Below are positions 11,222 to 15,666 of a stretch of 37,494 nt of DNA, piece after piece. Source of the DNA: a virus. The stretch's first letter is position 1, and each line of letters opens with the position of its first letter. The notes below the pieces were generated by a model. The model had not been told where the DNA came from. It saw nothing but the letters and a program-made list of their open reading frames with translations, and ran no database searches. Made by a program: the position numbers and the translations under genes. The stretch is taken from IMG/VR virus record IMGVR_UViG_3300010413_000160, positions 1 through 37,494 of that record; one strand, 5' to 3'.

Positions 11222-11621
11222 CGAGCAGATGTTCCAACTAGTGTTCAACGATCACGGTATCAGCACATTAGGGTGGATGTTCGCTGCTGCTATGGCTATA
11301 GGTTTTCTCTTAGACGAAGACGGCAGAAAAATCAGGACTTGGCTGTTTGTCATTTGTATGTATTTTGTTGTCCAAGAGATCGTACGCTATGATCTGTTCC
11401 AGAGGGTATCGCACAGCGCGCCTTTAGCTGTCGAGACAGTCAACGTTGTCATATGGCTGACGTACTCAGCTGGGCTTTGTTTAGGATGGGTGCTGTCGTA
11501 CTTCTCAAAGAAGAAAGGAAGGCAAGATTACAAACTGGCAAAGCAGAGAAATGGGGAGTACAATGGGGAAGATAAGCGTAACGCGCTGGATAAAGCGCAG
11601 GAAGATGAAAAAGCCGTGTAA
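11214..11621 (+). CDS. Multi-span membrane protein, holin candidate
   Basis: This 135-residue protein has three hydrophobic segments (about residues 18-33, 42-58 and 76-96) and a highly charged C-terminal tail (SKKKGRQDYKL and onward). That is the usual layout of a class I holin. It starts inside the end of the preceding membrane-protein gene and lies two genes upstream of the endolysin. No family was recognised. Confidence 0.55.
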   Translation: MTNEQMFQLVFNDHGISTLGWMFAAAMAIGFLLDEDGRKIRTWLFVICMYFVVQEIVRYDLFQRVSHSAPLAVETVNVVIWLTYSAGLCLGWVLSYFSKKKGRQDYKLAKQRNGEYNGEDKRNALDKAQEDEKAV

Positions 11622-11647
11622 GAGTAAGAGTAAAAGGAGAGATGCAA

Positions 11648-12049
11648 ATGAACGTAGAGATGATTCAACCGTGGCTTCAAGAAAGACTTCTGATGCTCGC
11701 GCTGATGGGCGCAGTAGCTCTGATTGATGTTATTCTGGCTGTCGTTGTAGCAGTACAGAATAAAGAGTTCAAGCTCGAAAAGTTGCCGGAGTTCCTGTTC
11801 ACGTTCGTAAAGTGGGGATTGGCATGGGTAGCTGCTGAGCTTATCCAGTTTTTGCCTACGCTGTTCGGAGTAGATGCTAACTTCTGGACTGAAATATTTG
11901 CTCAGTACACAGGCGGTGCGGTGTACGCTGGCGTTATGGTCAAGTACGGCGCAAGCATACTCGGTCACATTCAAGACACACAGAAATTACCTGATCGTGC
12001 AAGCAACGTGCTGACAAAGATCGGCATCCCACCGGACGCGCAAGGATAA
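11648..12049 (+). CDS. Holin-like membrane protein
   Basis: This is a 133-residue protein with hydrophobic segments at about residues 14-35, 50-68 and 88-105, and a polar C-terminus. It directly precedes the endolysin gene. Two in-frame ATGs exist. The one at 11648 is 8 bases from AGGAGAG, while that at 11642 is only 2 bases away, so 11648 is preferred. The layout resembles phage holins of about 130 residues. Two adjacent membrane proteins raise the possibility of a holin/antiholin pair or a two-component holin. Confidence 0.6.
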   Translation: MNVEMIQPWLQERLLMLALMGAVALIDVILAVVVAVQNKEFKLEKLPEFLFTFVKWGLAWVAAELIQFLPTLFGVDANFWTEIFAQYTGGAVYAGVMVKYGASILGHIQDTQKLPDRASNVLTKIGIPPDAQG

Positions 12050-12053
12050 TCAC

Positions 12054-13124
12054 ATGGCATTTGAAATAGATGTCACCACTCTTGCACCAGAAGAGCGCGA
12101 TTATGTCTCTCAGCTAGGTAAGATATCACGCCCGTTCTGGCATGACCCGTCAAAGCTGCCATATATCAGGCGCGTATACAATATCTACAACGTACTGACG
12201 CTTGCTGCGCGTGAGTGGGATGTGGTCGGTGTTGATATGTCAGCATGGCAGGGTGAGTGTGATTTCTCTCTGCTGTCACAGCTTGCCAGCTTTGTGCTGA
12301 TCAGATACCTGTACGGCAACGATTACTTTGACCCACGCGCTCCAGAGTACGTGCAGGGGTGCGTGGACTACAAGCTGCCGTACGGCGGGTACGGGTACGT
12401 CAAGCCAGGAAAGTCATACGACAAACAGACCAGCAATCTGAAACTGAAATACGACGAATTTTCGACAGATTATCAGGTGATCTACCCGATGGTGGACTTC
12501 GAGGAAACTGGCGGGTACGACAAGAACACCCTGAACAACTGGATGCAGAAATATTACATGAGACTGTGCTCTGCATTTGGATATGGGTTTGATAAAGATG
12601 GGTTGAAGCATTTTATGACCTATACGTCGCCTGGATTTCTCGACACAAAGATGCCGCTGACTGACTACATCAAGTGGACAAAGTTGGACGTTGCACACTG
12701 GACTACTGCACCAGAACCAATACGCCCGAAAGAGTGGTCTGTCCCTGACTTCCCGTGGATATTCTGGCAGGATGGTGTGTACGACTCAACAGGCTATGGT
12801 GTTCAATCAGCAAAGATCGACCACCAGCGGTACTGGGGTTCAAAGCAGGACTTCGCGAATGAGTTTGGTGTAGCTATCTCACCCCCGACTACGCCCACTG
12901 TACCAGCTTATATCAAGGTCAATGTGTCTTCGCTCAACGTGCGCGTTGTAGCAACCGACTCTGGCAACACACCGATTGCTGTTACGTACTACGGTAAAGT
13001 GTGGAAAACCACTGGTAAGTCACAGTGGGATACAGCAAACAGGGGTTGGTGGCTGGAAGTTTCAGATGATCATGGACAGCAACTATGGTTAGCAGGTTGG
13101 CTCTGTAAGGATGTCAGCCCATAG
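12054..13124 (+). CDS. Endolysin: GH25 muramidase with C-terminal SH3-like domain
   Basis: This 356-residue protein cleaves the glycan strands of peptidoglycan at lysis. The GH25 core spans about residues 55-275. It has the N-terminal catalytic-site strand GVDMSAWQG, the glycine-rich GGYGYVKPG, and the DxE catalytic pair in YPMVDFEET, followed by a substrate-lining WIFWQDG. A Thr/Pro linker (about 277-285) leads to an SH3-like wall-binding domain (about 287-356) with LNVRV. The last about 23 codons are AT-richer than the rest and have a diverged second copy at 13736-13804, beyond the HNH gene. The gene therefore seems to have received a new 3' end with that insertion. The last 36 bases overlap the antisense HNH gene. 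Confidence 0.9.
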   Translation: MAFEIDVTTLAPEERDYVSQLGKISRPFWHDPSKLPYIRRVYNIYNVLTLAAREWDVVGVDMSAWQGECDFSLLSQLASFVLIRYLYGNDYFDPRAPEYVQGCVDYKLPYGGYGYVKPGKSYDKQTSNLKLKYDEFSTDYQVIYPMVDFEETGGYDKNTLNNWMQKYYMRLCSAFGYGFDKDGLKHFMTYTSPGFLDTKMPLTDYIKWTKLDVAHWTTAPEPIRPKEWSVPDFPWIFWQDGVYDSTGYGVQSAKIDHQRYWGSKQDFANEFGVAISPPTTPTVPAYIKVNVSSLNVRVVATDSGNTPIAVTYYGKVWKTTGKSQWDTANRGWWLEVSDDHGQQLWLAGWLCKDVSP

Positions 13125-13661
13125 TTTTCTGTTGACGATCATGCTGATTGTAGAATCGTTTACACCATAAACTTCGGCAAGCTCTTTCTGTAGAGCTTTT
13201 CCAGAACGATAAGCTGATCTTATTTCAATAACTTGATCTGGGGTCAGCTTTACGTTATTCTTTGGTCTATTCAAGACGCGATACGAATGAATAGAATTTT
13301 GACTCTTTGTTACCCATTCTAAGTTTGATAGCCTATTGTCCGAGCGTATACCATTTTTGTGATTGCACTCCATGTTGTCTGGACATTTACCCAAGAAAGA
13401 TTCGAGCACTAACCTATGAACAACACATCTCCTTTCTATCCCGTTTTTACTCAGCCCTGTGTGTACATATCCTGAATGATGAATCCTACGTTTCAGTATG
13501 CGCTCTTTTTTATTAGTAACACAATCATTAATGATAATTTGCCTTGCCAAACTTTTTACACGCCCTAAATTGCTGACTTGATAACATCCTTCATAGCCAG
13601 CAATATCGCGCCATTCTTCAGTTTCTAATTCTTTTGGGGTAAAATTATATTCATCCATCAT
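13089..13661 (-). CDS. HNH homing endonuclease (NUMOD4 + HNH + C-terminal HTH)
   Basis: This 190-residue protein carries a NUMOD4 segment (EEWRDIAGYEGCYQVSNLGR, residues 15-34). An HNH_3 nuclease core follows at about residues 80-118 (VHRLVLESFLGKCPDN, then CNHKNGIRSDNRLSNLEWVT). A C-terminal helix-turn-helix (about 138-180) would read DNA. Such free-standing enzymes cut alleles that lack their own gene and spread by repair copying. AGGAG lies 4 bases before the first ATG and 7 before a second (13658), so either may be used. The gene is antisense to the endolysin and overlaps its last 36 bases. It is clearly AT-richer than the flanking phage genes. Confidence 0.9.
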   Translation of the reverse strand: MMDEYNFTPKELETEEWRDIAGYEGCYQVSNLGRVKSLARQIIINDCVTNKKERILKRRIHHSGYVHTGLSKNGIERRCVVHRLVLESFLGKCPDNMECNHKNGIRSDNRLSNLEWVTKSQNSIHSYRVLNRPKNNVKLTPDQVIEIRSAYRSGKALQKELAEVYGVNDSTISMIVNRKLWADILTEPTC

Positions 13662-13686
13662 GCTACTCCTATTAGCATTGTTGGTT

Positions 13687-13716
13687 GGTAAGAACGATAC
13701 TCAAGTCGTTCTTACC
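13687..13716. terminator. Perfect 11-bp hairpin, terminator or HNH leader structure
   Basis: GGTAAGAACGA (13687-13697) and TCGTTCTTACC (13706-13716) pair perfectly around an 8-base loop. On the plus strand the stem is followed by CTTTATTTTATC, so it can stop late transcription that runs through the endolysin. On the minus strand it lies in the 5' leader of the HNH gene, about 15 bases before its ribosome binding site, where such hairpins can limit expression. Confidence 0.65.
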
Positions 13717-13735
13717 TTTATTTTATCATATTTTG

Positions 13736-13804
13736 TGGTATCAGGTAGCTGATGAGCACGGTCAGGAATTGTGGCTTGCGGCGTGGTTGTGCGTGCCGCT
13801 GTAG
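13736..13804 (+). pseudogene. Orphan second copy of the endolysin C-terminus
   Basis: Beyond the HNH gene one frame encodes 22 residues ending in a stop: VADEHGQELWLAAWLC plus short flanks. They match the last residues of the intact endolysin, VSDDHGQQLWLAGWLC, without gaps, while nearly every third codon position differs. There is no start codon or ribosome binding site. It is best explained as the original 3' end of the endolysin gene, displaced when the HNH cassette arrived with its own replacement end. Base composition matches the GC-richer phage genes, unlike the replacement copy. Confidence 0.75.
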
Positions 13805-13825
13805 ATAAATTAAGCGAAATTTCCC
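13805..13825 (+). promoter_or_regulatory. Dispersed motif copy 1 (TTAAGCGAAATTTCCC)
   Basis: First copy of a motif found at least eight times in the window (core TTAAGCGAAACTTCACC). It begins one base after the orphan endolysin end and precedes the terminator, at the end of the plus-strand late unit. This copy carries T for C in the core and CCC for ACC. Confidence 0.6.
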
Positions 13826-13909
13826 GCACGGGGAGTTCAGTGACCTGGTGGCTCGACGAGCTGGGATAAGTCGGTGAAACATCGCACGATATATTTACAA
13901 GAGCAAGTC

Positions 13910-13935
13910 AAAAGCCCCTCGTTTGAGGGGCTTTT
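13910..13935. terminator. Bidirectional intrinsic terminator between convergent units
   Basis: AAAAGCCCCTC (13910-13920) and GAGGGGCTTTT (13925-13935) form a perfect 11-bp stem with a GTTT loop. A-run and T-run flanks let it act in both directions. It separates the late plus-strand operon from the minus-strand gene ending at 13955. Confidence 0.9.
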
Positions 13936-13954
13936 GTTGTCTGTTAGCTTTTCT

Positions 13955-14896
13955 CTACATCAACCACGCGTTCTCATCTGTCTCGTCGGTGTCATCTTTA
14001 CCGGCAAGAGCGATGATACGGTAGGTCATCGCAAGTGCTTCAAGTTTTGCGGCCTGGTCTTCAATAATTTCAAACAATCGTTTATCTTCCACCTCCTCTA
14101 ATCTGTTGGCAATCTCGTCCAGCAAAGCAAAACTGCGCTTACCGTTTTGCTCTATGCCCAAGATAACAATACCGTTGATCTCGGCTACAGAGTATACGCC
14201 ATCCGGCAGAGCGATTTTATCCGTTGAGTCCTCTGGTGCAATGAACGGGCGAGTGTATAAGTTTATCGGCGCGGATGGCTTGGATGCCATAGCAGCTTTA
14301 TAGTCCAGCATAGGCTGACCGAAGTACTCCATGTGCCTTTCAACGAACTGGGCTGTTGCATGATATGGGTTGTTTATATTCTCTATACCAGCATCGAAAT
14401 CCCCGCCACCGAAGAATTTTGGCGAGTGGACATTCCATCCGTCTCCGCCGTGATAGCTAACAAGCGGGTAAAAATTACCAACAATAGTTACACCGCCACC
14501 CAAGTTATCGTCCCAACTCTGAGAGCTCTTTACATTTTCTAAAGCCTCACACACGAAAGCATGTCTGCCAGCATTGTTACTGCCTTGAAATGTAACGCCT
14601 ACGACAACAGGCATGTGAGCTACCATTTCCCCGTCAAAACGGCGTGCAAACTTATGCTGTACTGTACTTGGAACAGCCGAAAAGTACGCCACAGACACAG
14701 ATGAAAAGTTTGCAATAGTGTTTACTTCTTGCGAGAAAAAAGCACGGCGCGGCTCTAAGAAGTCACCTTTCAAAGCATAACCTCCTATTTGCTCGATATC
14801 TACACCGCTGATAGCTTTTGCCCATACCTTTACCTGATCCTCTGGCGTATTGGATGACACGCTGACAGATAAAGAACCATCAAACAGTTTTGTCAT
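13955..14896 (-). CDS. Unknown phage protein, last gene of the minus-strand cluster
   Basis: I do not recognise this 313-residue protein. The first 180 residues are beta-rich with several Gly-rich loops (DDNLGGGVTIVGNFYPLVSY, SPKFFGGGDFDAG). Residues 215-255 look like a second small beta domain (ALPDGVYSVAEINGIVILGI). The C-terminus (about 260-300) is an acidic helix. The start codon overlaps the stop of the upstream Transposase_20-like gene by four bases (ATGA), so the two are translationally coupled and probably act together. It ends close to the bidirectional terminator. Confidence 0.8.
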   Translation of the reverse strand: MTKLFDGSLSVSVSSNTPEDQVKVWAKAISGVDIEQIGGYALKGDFLEPRRAFFSQEVNTIANFSSVSVAYFSAVPSTVQHKFARRFDGEMVAHMPVVVGVTFQGSNNAGRHAFVCEALENVKSSQSWDDNLGGGVTIVGNFYPLVSYHGGDGWNVHSPKFFGGGDFDAGIENINNPYHATAQFVERHMEYFGQPMLDYKAAMASKPSAPINLYTRPFIAPEDSTDKIALPDGVYSVAEINGIVILGIEQNGKRSFALLDEIANRLEEVEDKRLFEIIEDQAAKLEALAMTYRIIALAGKDDTDETDENAWLM

Positions 14897-15666
14897 GGCG
14901 GCGGTATGATGTCTGAGTGACCAAGCACGCTTTTCACATACGGTTCATTAGTGGGCAGTTTCTCCAGCTCGCGCCATTTCAGCCAGAGGTGCTGGAGAAA
15001 AATCTTGCGCATCTTGCGCATTGCAATCAGGTGTATGTGCATGTCTGTATAATCCCAAAGAGGCTTGCCGTCACGGCTTACAGCTTGCTTGCCAGTGTCG
15101 AGCATGCGCCGTTCTTTCTCCGGGTGGAGCTCTCGCTGTCGTTCTTTCTCCTGATAATAGATATCAGAGTACAGAGGTGTCTGCTGTTTGATAAACTGCT
15201 CACCTATAAGATAGCATAGGGTTTTCAGCGGACGAGAAAAGTGGGATTTTTCACCGGGTTTATTTCTCTCGGCTCTACCATCGATGACAGCATGACCAGA
15301 AAATCGCCATAGCTGTGACACATTATCGAACGATGATATGTCATCGATTTGAGCCAGCAGACCTGCGGCAAGTGCTCCATCTTTCAGTCCCTTGATCGAT
15401 GTAATCCAATCCCATATTGGCCCGACTCTCTTCGCATACGGTATCATCGTTTTCTTGGCGTTCTTCTTGATCTCTGTAAGCCACGTCGCGAACATTATCT
15501 CTGTCTGAGCATCAAGGTTACTGCGATTGTCTTTAGCTGCAGACAGGCGGTTCTTATGACGCACGATAAGGCGCGTCATTTCGTCATAGAGCTGGTAGGA
15601 TTGCCACAGCTCTGGGTGCTTGCGCGGCTTTGGCGCAGGCACATTGTTCTCTTTATCGTCTTTCAT
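14893..15666 (-). CDS. Lone Transposase_20-like (IS110-family C-terminal) domain protein
   Basis: This 257-residue protein resembles the C-terminal half of IS110/IS116/IS902 transposases. It has the helix-hairpin-helix-type segment WITSIKGLKDGALAAGLLAQ, then DDISSFDNVSQLWRFSGHA, then a helix LKTLCYLIGEQFIK, a YSDIYYQEK segment, and a terminal HIHLIAMRKMRKIF. The N-terminal RuvC-like DEDD domain of a real IS110 enzyme is absent. The usual catalytic-serine position after GH reads VIDGRAER, with no serine. No insertion-sequence ends were seen. It is therefore probably a DNA-binding relative doing a phage job, not an active transposase. Its start (good AAAGGAG site) lies just downstream of repeat array A, in the same orientation. 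Confidence 0.7.
   Translation of the reverse strand: MKDDKENNVPAPKPRKHPELWQSYQLYDEMTRLIVRHKNRLSAAKDNRSNLDAQTEIMFATWLTEIKKNAKKTMIPYAKRVGPIWDWITSIKGLKDGALAAGLLAQIDDISSFDNVSQLWRFSGHAVIDGRAERNKPGEKSHFSRPLKTLCYLIGEQFIKQQTPLYSDIYYQEKERQRELHPEKERRMLDTGKQAVSRDGKPLWDYTDMHIHLIAMRKMRKIFLQHLWLKWRELEKLPTNEPYVKSVLGHSDIIPPP

Follow-up and report, generated by a model that had tools for sequence, protein, structure and literature searches.

The question raised by this locus is how a gene for a homing-type nuclease came to lie between an intact endolysin gene and a second copy of the 3' end of that gene. The locus was analysed in a virus record taken at its full length of 37,494 bases, hereafter called the window. 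An ORF on the plus strand at 12054-13124 encodes a GH25 endolysin (Glyco_hydro_25, E 4.7e-13; endolysin PHROGs), the terminal residues of which are WWLEVSDDHGQQLWLAGWLCKDVSP followed by a stop codon. It is preceded by a small ORF that is weakly holin-like, with a score under the Pfam cut-off, and no SH3 match was found in Pfam for the C-terminal part of the lysin. On the minus strand, an uninterrupted NUMOD4-HNH homing-type endonuclease gene at 13089-13661 constitutes an ORF separate from the lysin and overlaps the last 36 bases of the lysin gene in antisense orientation. Its product of 190 residues is a full-length NUMOD4-HNH protein, in which both domains scored over the cut-offs (HNH_3, E 1e-16; NUMOD4, E 4.4e-16). 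The second copy (LWYQVADEHGQELWLAAWLCVPL and a stop codon) lies on the plus strand at 13733-13804 without the upstream coding part of the lysin, and is referred to below as the stranded end, since it appears to be the original one. The end in current use, a putative replacement, was delimited by codon comparison with the second copy and occupies 13050-13124 on the plus strand, stop included.

Two terminator-like hairpins were predicted in this region. The hairpin at 13687-13716 on the plus strand (12 pairs with a T-rich tail, z -5.3) is located between the start of the HNH gene and the stranded end; it is either a plus-strand terminator, which would stop lysin transcripts ahead of the stranded end, or a 5' leader hairpin of the HNH mRNA on the minus strand. 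The bidirectional hairpin at 13909-13936 probably marks where the lysis operon originally ended. Just past the lysis region, a minus-strand gene at 14893-15666 matches the transposase-annotated PHROG phrog_4285 (E 5.5e-40).

When the lysin was searched against its own record, two matches were obtained, the lysin itself and the second copy (E 2.4e-6). Over 19 aligned codons (13050-13106 versus 13736-13792), the residues were identical at 13 of 19 positions, and the first, second and third codon positions matched in 12, 17 and 6 of the 19 codons, respectively, which is a coding pattern. The ORFs, the self-search and the residue identity confirm the two copies, their order and their strands as described in the initial annotation. 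That annotation had also stated that the wobble positions differ almost throughout and had suggested that the used end is recoded. The difference at the third position is real, but it does not go beyond saturation. Among the codons for the same residue, excluding Trp and Met, 2 of 10 were identical compared with 3.55 expected if codons were drawn independently at the frequencies used by this phage (P 0.24), and when the seven loci described below were pooled, 31 of 95 codons were identical compared with 37.7 expected (P 0.08). Because codon identity is not significantly below chance, the wobble divergence between the copies is neutral saturation without excess. A special recoding is not supported by these counts; in a sister locus, L199, the end in use looks like a normal allele from a different phage lineage. 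A further statement, that the used copy is AT-rich like the HNH gene, fails for overall composition, in that the GC contents of the used end (13047-13124), the lysin body, the HNH gene and the stranded end were 0.49, 0.50, 0.38 and 0.59, respectively, but holds for the third positions. At discordant third positions in the window, A/T in the used end was paired with G/C in the stranded end seven times and the opposite was seen once, and across the seven loci the A/T shift was toward the used ends by 48 to 25 (binomial P 0.0095, with sites that are non-independent).

In phage databases, 2,024 records match NUMOD4/HNH genes. The flanks of HNH genes were surveyed in a non-random sample that consisted of the best 80 of at least 584 viral matches to an alignment of six HNH sequences, 17 phage records (5 that had contributed to the alignment and 12 picked by hand from match lists), and additional HNH genes within the same records. 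The score was the best same-strand translated match between the 150 bases on the left and on the right of an HNH gene, plus 45 bases inside it, and left and right flanks paired across different loci were used as controls. In a first pass, 86 loci were reduced to 79 by dropping 7 near-duplicates, and the 77 with enough flank included six outliers. Of 197 loci in the union set, 194 contained HNH places; these numbered 200, of which 198 had flanks and 111 were non-redundant. A duplicated gene end was found at 7 of the 111 non-redundant NUMOD4/HNH places, the window included, with flank scores of 120 (L199), 96 (L044), 93 (window), 87 (L089), 62 (L099), 57 (L070) and 50 (L079). Control pairs with the first HNH gene of L105 were removed for a clean count, because its adjoining second HNH gene inflates the controls. 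None of the remaining 11,990 pairs, the top one of which scored 55, reached any of the top six loci, and 4 reached L079. With the L105 pairs included (n=12,210), the scores of L199, L044, the window, L089, L099, L070 and L079 were reached by 1, 1, 1, 1, 14, 20 and 45 controls, respectively. L079 is borderline by score, yet both of its copies stop at the same residue. L146, with a score of 47 equalled by 19 controls, was left out of the count, and the high long-flank scores of L098, L092, L163 and L133 look like low-complexity or off-frame matches.

The survey also brought up other arrangements. In L105 (2986-4073), two tandem NUMOD4-HNH genes are flanked by large ORFs that resemble, by eye, a DNA polymerase III-type gene in two pieces. 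An HNH-like frame runs antisense within the annotated terminase large subunit gene of Escherichia phage BUCT618 (L131, 1001-1672), and an unannotated HNH gene is situated between Lysin A and Lysin B of Mycobacterium phage Inventum (L133, 1884-2483), with no credible duplication in its flanks.

At the six other loci with a duplicated end, genes were named from the sequence by eye unless they were annotated. L089 is a second lysin case, in which a CHAP-like lysin is followed by the HNH gene and then by the stranded end KRERNIRQVQAFINLIG with its stop codon. The target in L079 is an ORF within a virion gene cluster, with the stranded end VQFIYRNLNNLS and a stop codon; the target in L099 is helicase-like, and its stranded end is fused in frame with the C-terminus of the HNH protein. 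The L199 target is annotated as 'putative HNHc nuclease' in relatives. L044 (terminase-like target) and L070 (dUTPase-like target) are mirror forms, in which a stranded gene start lies before the HNH N-terminus or is fused to it and the intact gene starts anew afterwards. The HNH gene is co-oriented with its target at these six loci and antisense in the window only, and the target gene is whole at each of the loci. DNA searches with L089 and L079 matched only fragments within or close to HNH genes, and no empty site was obtained. The helicase-like ORF of L099 (262-2994, 910 aa) carries, as judged by eye, an apparent intein-like insertion directly after a GDDMGLGK motif.

The origin of both ends was examined at L199, which belongs to a staphylococcal-type prophage (record IMGVR_UViG_2802429502_000001). 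A megablast search with the L199 region yielded 47 phage records, 43 of them of Staphylococcus, and eight relatives were compared with L199. In five of the eight (Pel11, SpT5, SNUABM-J, StB20 and BE01), the right-hand alignment resumes at L199 base 1862, exactly where the stranded end begins; this alignment starts at 1861 in SAP3 and at 1883 in SAP_1432 and phi 11. On the left, alignment breaks off at 1184 (Pel11), 1217 (SpT5 and SNUABM-J), 1221 (StB20), 1101 (BE01), 1172 (SAP3) and 1285 (SAP_1432 and phi 11). The two pieces almost adjoin on the Pel11 sequence (1305, then 1316), where 10 bases correspond to 677 in L199. The stranded end of L199 agrees with HNH-less Pel11 at 30 of 31 residues. 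Over the 31 duplicated codons, 8 of 9 phages were more similar to the stranded end than to the used end (for example, 80 versus 55 of 93 nt in Pel11 and 85 versus 50 in SAP3), including two near ties (61 versus 58 in SAP_1432 and 62 versus 58 in phi 11). The used end was closer only to vB_SepS_459 of S. epidermidis, with 75 of 93 nt compared with 58 for the stranded end. Along the used gene, identity to Pel11 drops from 0.97 to 0.58, and at codons 161-220 identity to vB_SepS_459 is 0.77-0.85, compared with 0.67 or less to all other phages. Since the used end is like that of vB_SepS_459 and the stranded end like those of the relatives, the former is most simply regarded as a natural allele of another lineage and the latter as native. 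What the initial annotation had proposed for the window, a cassette that brought its own gene end, keeps the target whole and strands the old end, was thus demonstrated in this sister locus by means of its HNH-less relatives. The L199 gene is also mosaic at codons 81-140, with a switch toward SAP3 near codons 101-140 where no HNH gene is present, and part of the pattern is therefore due to general phage recombination and is not confined to HNH genes. In SAP_1432 (L205, MZ570582, 1694-3144), the same nuclease gene is followed by another kind of HNH gene, judged AP2-like by eye, and the C-terminus of this HNH protein itself (KALKGEDNGRNIVDKT and a stop codon) is similar to the end of the native phi 11 nuclease, as if an end-swap had occurred independently at this nuclease gene.

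No close relatives of the window phage were found among phages by window DNA or lysin protein, in viral or genome contigs by the lysin, in viral contigs by a neighbour protein or the HNH protein, or in genome contigs by a Dit alignment. None of 23 records from a plasmid search covered 80% of the lysin, the cassette as a unit was not found in a second genome, and the 3 matches of a sequence-pattern search for relatives were all due to chance once translated. Because no close HNH-less relative was found, we infer insertion in the window by analogy with L199. By the same analogy, in which the foreign tract is graded, the foreign tract in the window may start upstream of 13050. Distant kin were obtained as 8 loci via the tape measure protein and 13 loci via the Dit alignment, which partly overlap. 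A GH25 gene was present in 6 of 16 kin records, other lysins were present in most, and the C-terminus of the window lysin alone matched one of the 16 records weakly (E 0.005), away from the GH25 gene of that record. Tandem ends in uninserted relatives, named in the initial annotation as the finding that would speak for an ordinary duplication, were not seen: the lysins of the distant kin L031 and L032 have a comparable single end segment each, with no tandem copy after it (ORFs read by eye and alignment). These single ends argue weakly against a pre-existing duplication, because the two lysins are just 18 and 22% identical to that of the window.

Taken together, the duplication that flanks the HNH gene, its recurrence at 7 of 111 places, the origins of the two ends in L199 and a layout like that of the yeast WHO model described below suggest, with a probability of roughly 0.8, that the window cassette is a free-standing HNH homing element by which the end of the target gene is exchanged. 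Points against it are the antisense orientation of the HNH gene, seen in the window alone, an insertion history taken from L199 and not from a close HNH-less relative, the additional mosaic tract in the L199 gene, and a cassette not found as a unit in a second genome. In such a homing cycle, the HNH nuclease would cut HNH-less lysin alleles near codon 333, and repair of the break would copy the cassette from a carrier phage, with one homology arm in the lysin body and the other in the stranded old end and the DNA downstream of it. The recipient would retain its own 5' part of the lysin and gain the diverged 3' end of the donor together with the HNH gene. The donor end would keep the enzyme whole and, through its sequence difference, would probably be resistant to cutting, while the old 3' end of the recipient would be displaced behind the HNH gene, where it may act as the right-hand homology in later rounds. 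The sequences show the arrangement in the window, its recurrence at six other loci and, in L199, where both ends came from; cutting, resistance and transfer by the HNH element are inferred. The immunity of the used end to HNH cutting that was put forward initially is plausible.

Homing nucleases are often borne by introns, and an HNH gene inside an intron of a gene in pieces would make the distal copy a real exon. This is hardly credible for the window, in which no Rfam match for group I or II catalytic RNA was obtained at gathering thresholds in 11500-15000, the proximal copy is complete and carries a stop codon, the nuclease gene is antisense, and a terminator-like hairpin precedes the distal copy. 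The presence of two copies would also be expected if the SH3-like end of the lysin had been duplicated in tandem in one lineage and the HNH gene had been inserted between the copies later. The single ends in L031 and L032, the divergence of the copies as far as saturated codons permit, and the match of the two ends of L199 to different phage lineages make such a history very improbable.

It is rather unlikely, on the other hand, but less so, that ordinary mosaicism produced the locus, with illegitimate recombination joining a diverged lysin end to an HNH gene and leaving the stranded end as a passive scar outside any homing cycle. The further mosaic switch in the L199 gene away from an HNH gene is in line with it, and nuclease genes are reported at the boundaries of genetic exchange between phages in the part of that report available to us (PMC10448857). 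The duplication, however, lies directly at the HNH borders in 7 of 111 places, the break in L199 is at one base in most relatives, and the target gene is whole at each locus, all of which argues against ordinary mosaicism.

The layout itself is known from yeast WHO elements and from fungal mORFs; what differs here is an unrelated nuclease and its occurrence in phages. In the sections of the WHO report at hand (PMC7282813), these elements are described from Torulaspora and Lachancea yeasts. According to the model given there, the nuclease cuts a sensitive allele and the donor repairs it, which gives a chimera in which the 5' part of the recipient is joined to the resistant 3' end of the donor, and the displaced 3' end serves as right-hand homology for later rounds. 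Common to both systems is a target gene with a replaced 3' end and the old end behind the nuclease gene, as seen in the window by layout and, for the origins, via L199. In contrast, the WHO proteins, as described in those sections, resemble inteins, carry a zinc finger and home during meiosis, with FBA1 as the main target, whereas NUMOD4-HNH proteins in phages have several target genes and two phage loci show a mirror form at the 5' end. The window nuclease is neither a WHO-type intein-like/zinc-finger fusion nor a LAGLIDADG or GIY-YIG protein. Fungal mitochondrial mORFs with foreign C-termini (Allomyces atp6; Glomus atp6, atp9, cox2 and nad3) likewise combine, in the excerpts available, a foreign C-terminus in use, a mobile nuclease gene and a downstream native C-terminus that matches relatives, but they involve LAGLIDADG or GIY-YIG nucleases and organelle genomes, and some are in phase with the gene (PMC3630166). 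Another fungal case has C-terminal duplications beside nuclease genes, according to the portion available (PMC6279837). In T4-like phages, intronless homing by free-standing endonucleases is classical beside target genes. It shares with the window element a phage setting, a free-standing nuclease gene adjoining its target and transfer by break repair, but no displaced gene end is described in the available passages, and cut sites can be hundreds or thousands of bases off the nuclease gene (PMC2988022, PMC6083498). The window element is a variant of intronless homing which, as far as its sequence indicates, is WHO-like in its working but is not a member of the WHO family. In a partial literature search with few subscription papers, which included accessible parts of PMC10448857, PMC12724721 and PMC8351571, no paper was found in which a phage nuclease substitutes a gene end and leaves the former end stranded.

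Beyond the window, it appears likely that phages hold widespread end-swapping HNH homing elements, each with a resistant replacement 3' end (5' in the mirror form) and a displaced end as homology arm. They would be an independently arisen prokaryotic counterpart of WHO elements that targets lysins, a terminase, a replication-module nuclease and other genes and drives the exchange of gene-end alleles between lineages without splicing. If this is true, it would be a third way, after introns and inteins, for homing nucleases to occupy phage genes harmlessly, and it would explain HNH genes lodged at gene ends and the sudden allele switches nearby. The similar layouts in several unrelated phages suggest recurrent spread without breaking the host gene. 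The strategy would become testable in phages, in which crosses take hours. In addition, displaced ends would mark past cut sites, and the recognition sites of uncharacterised HNH nucleases could thus be read from genome sequence.
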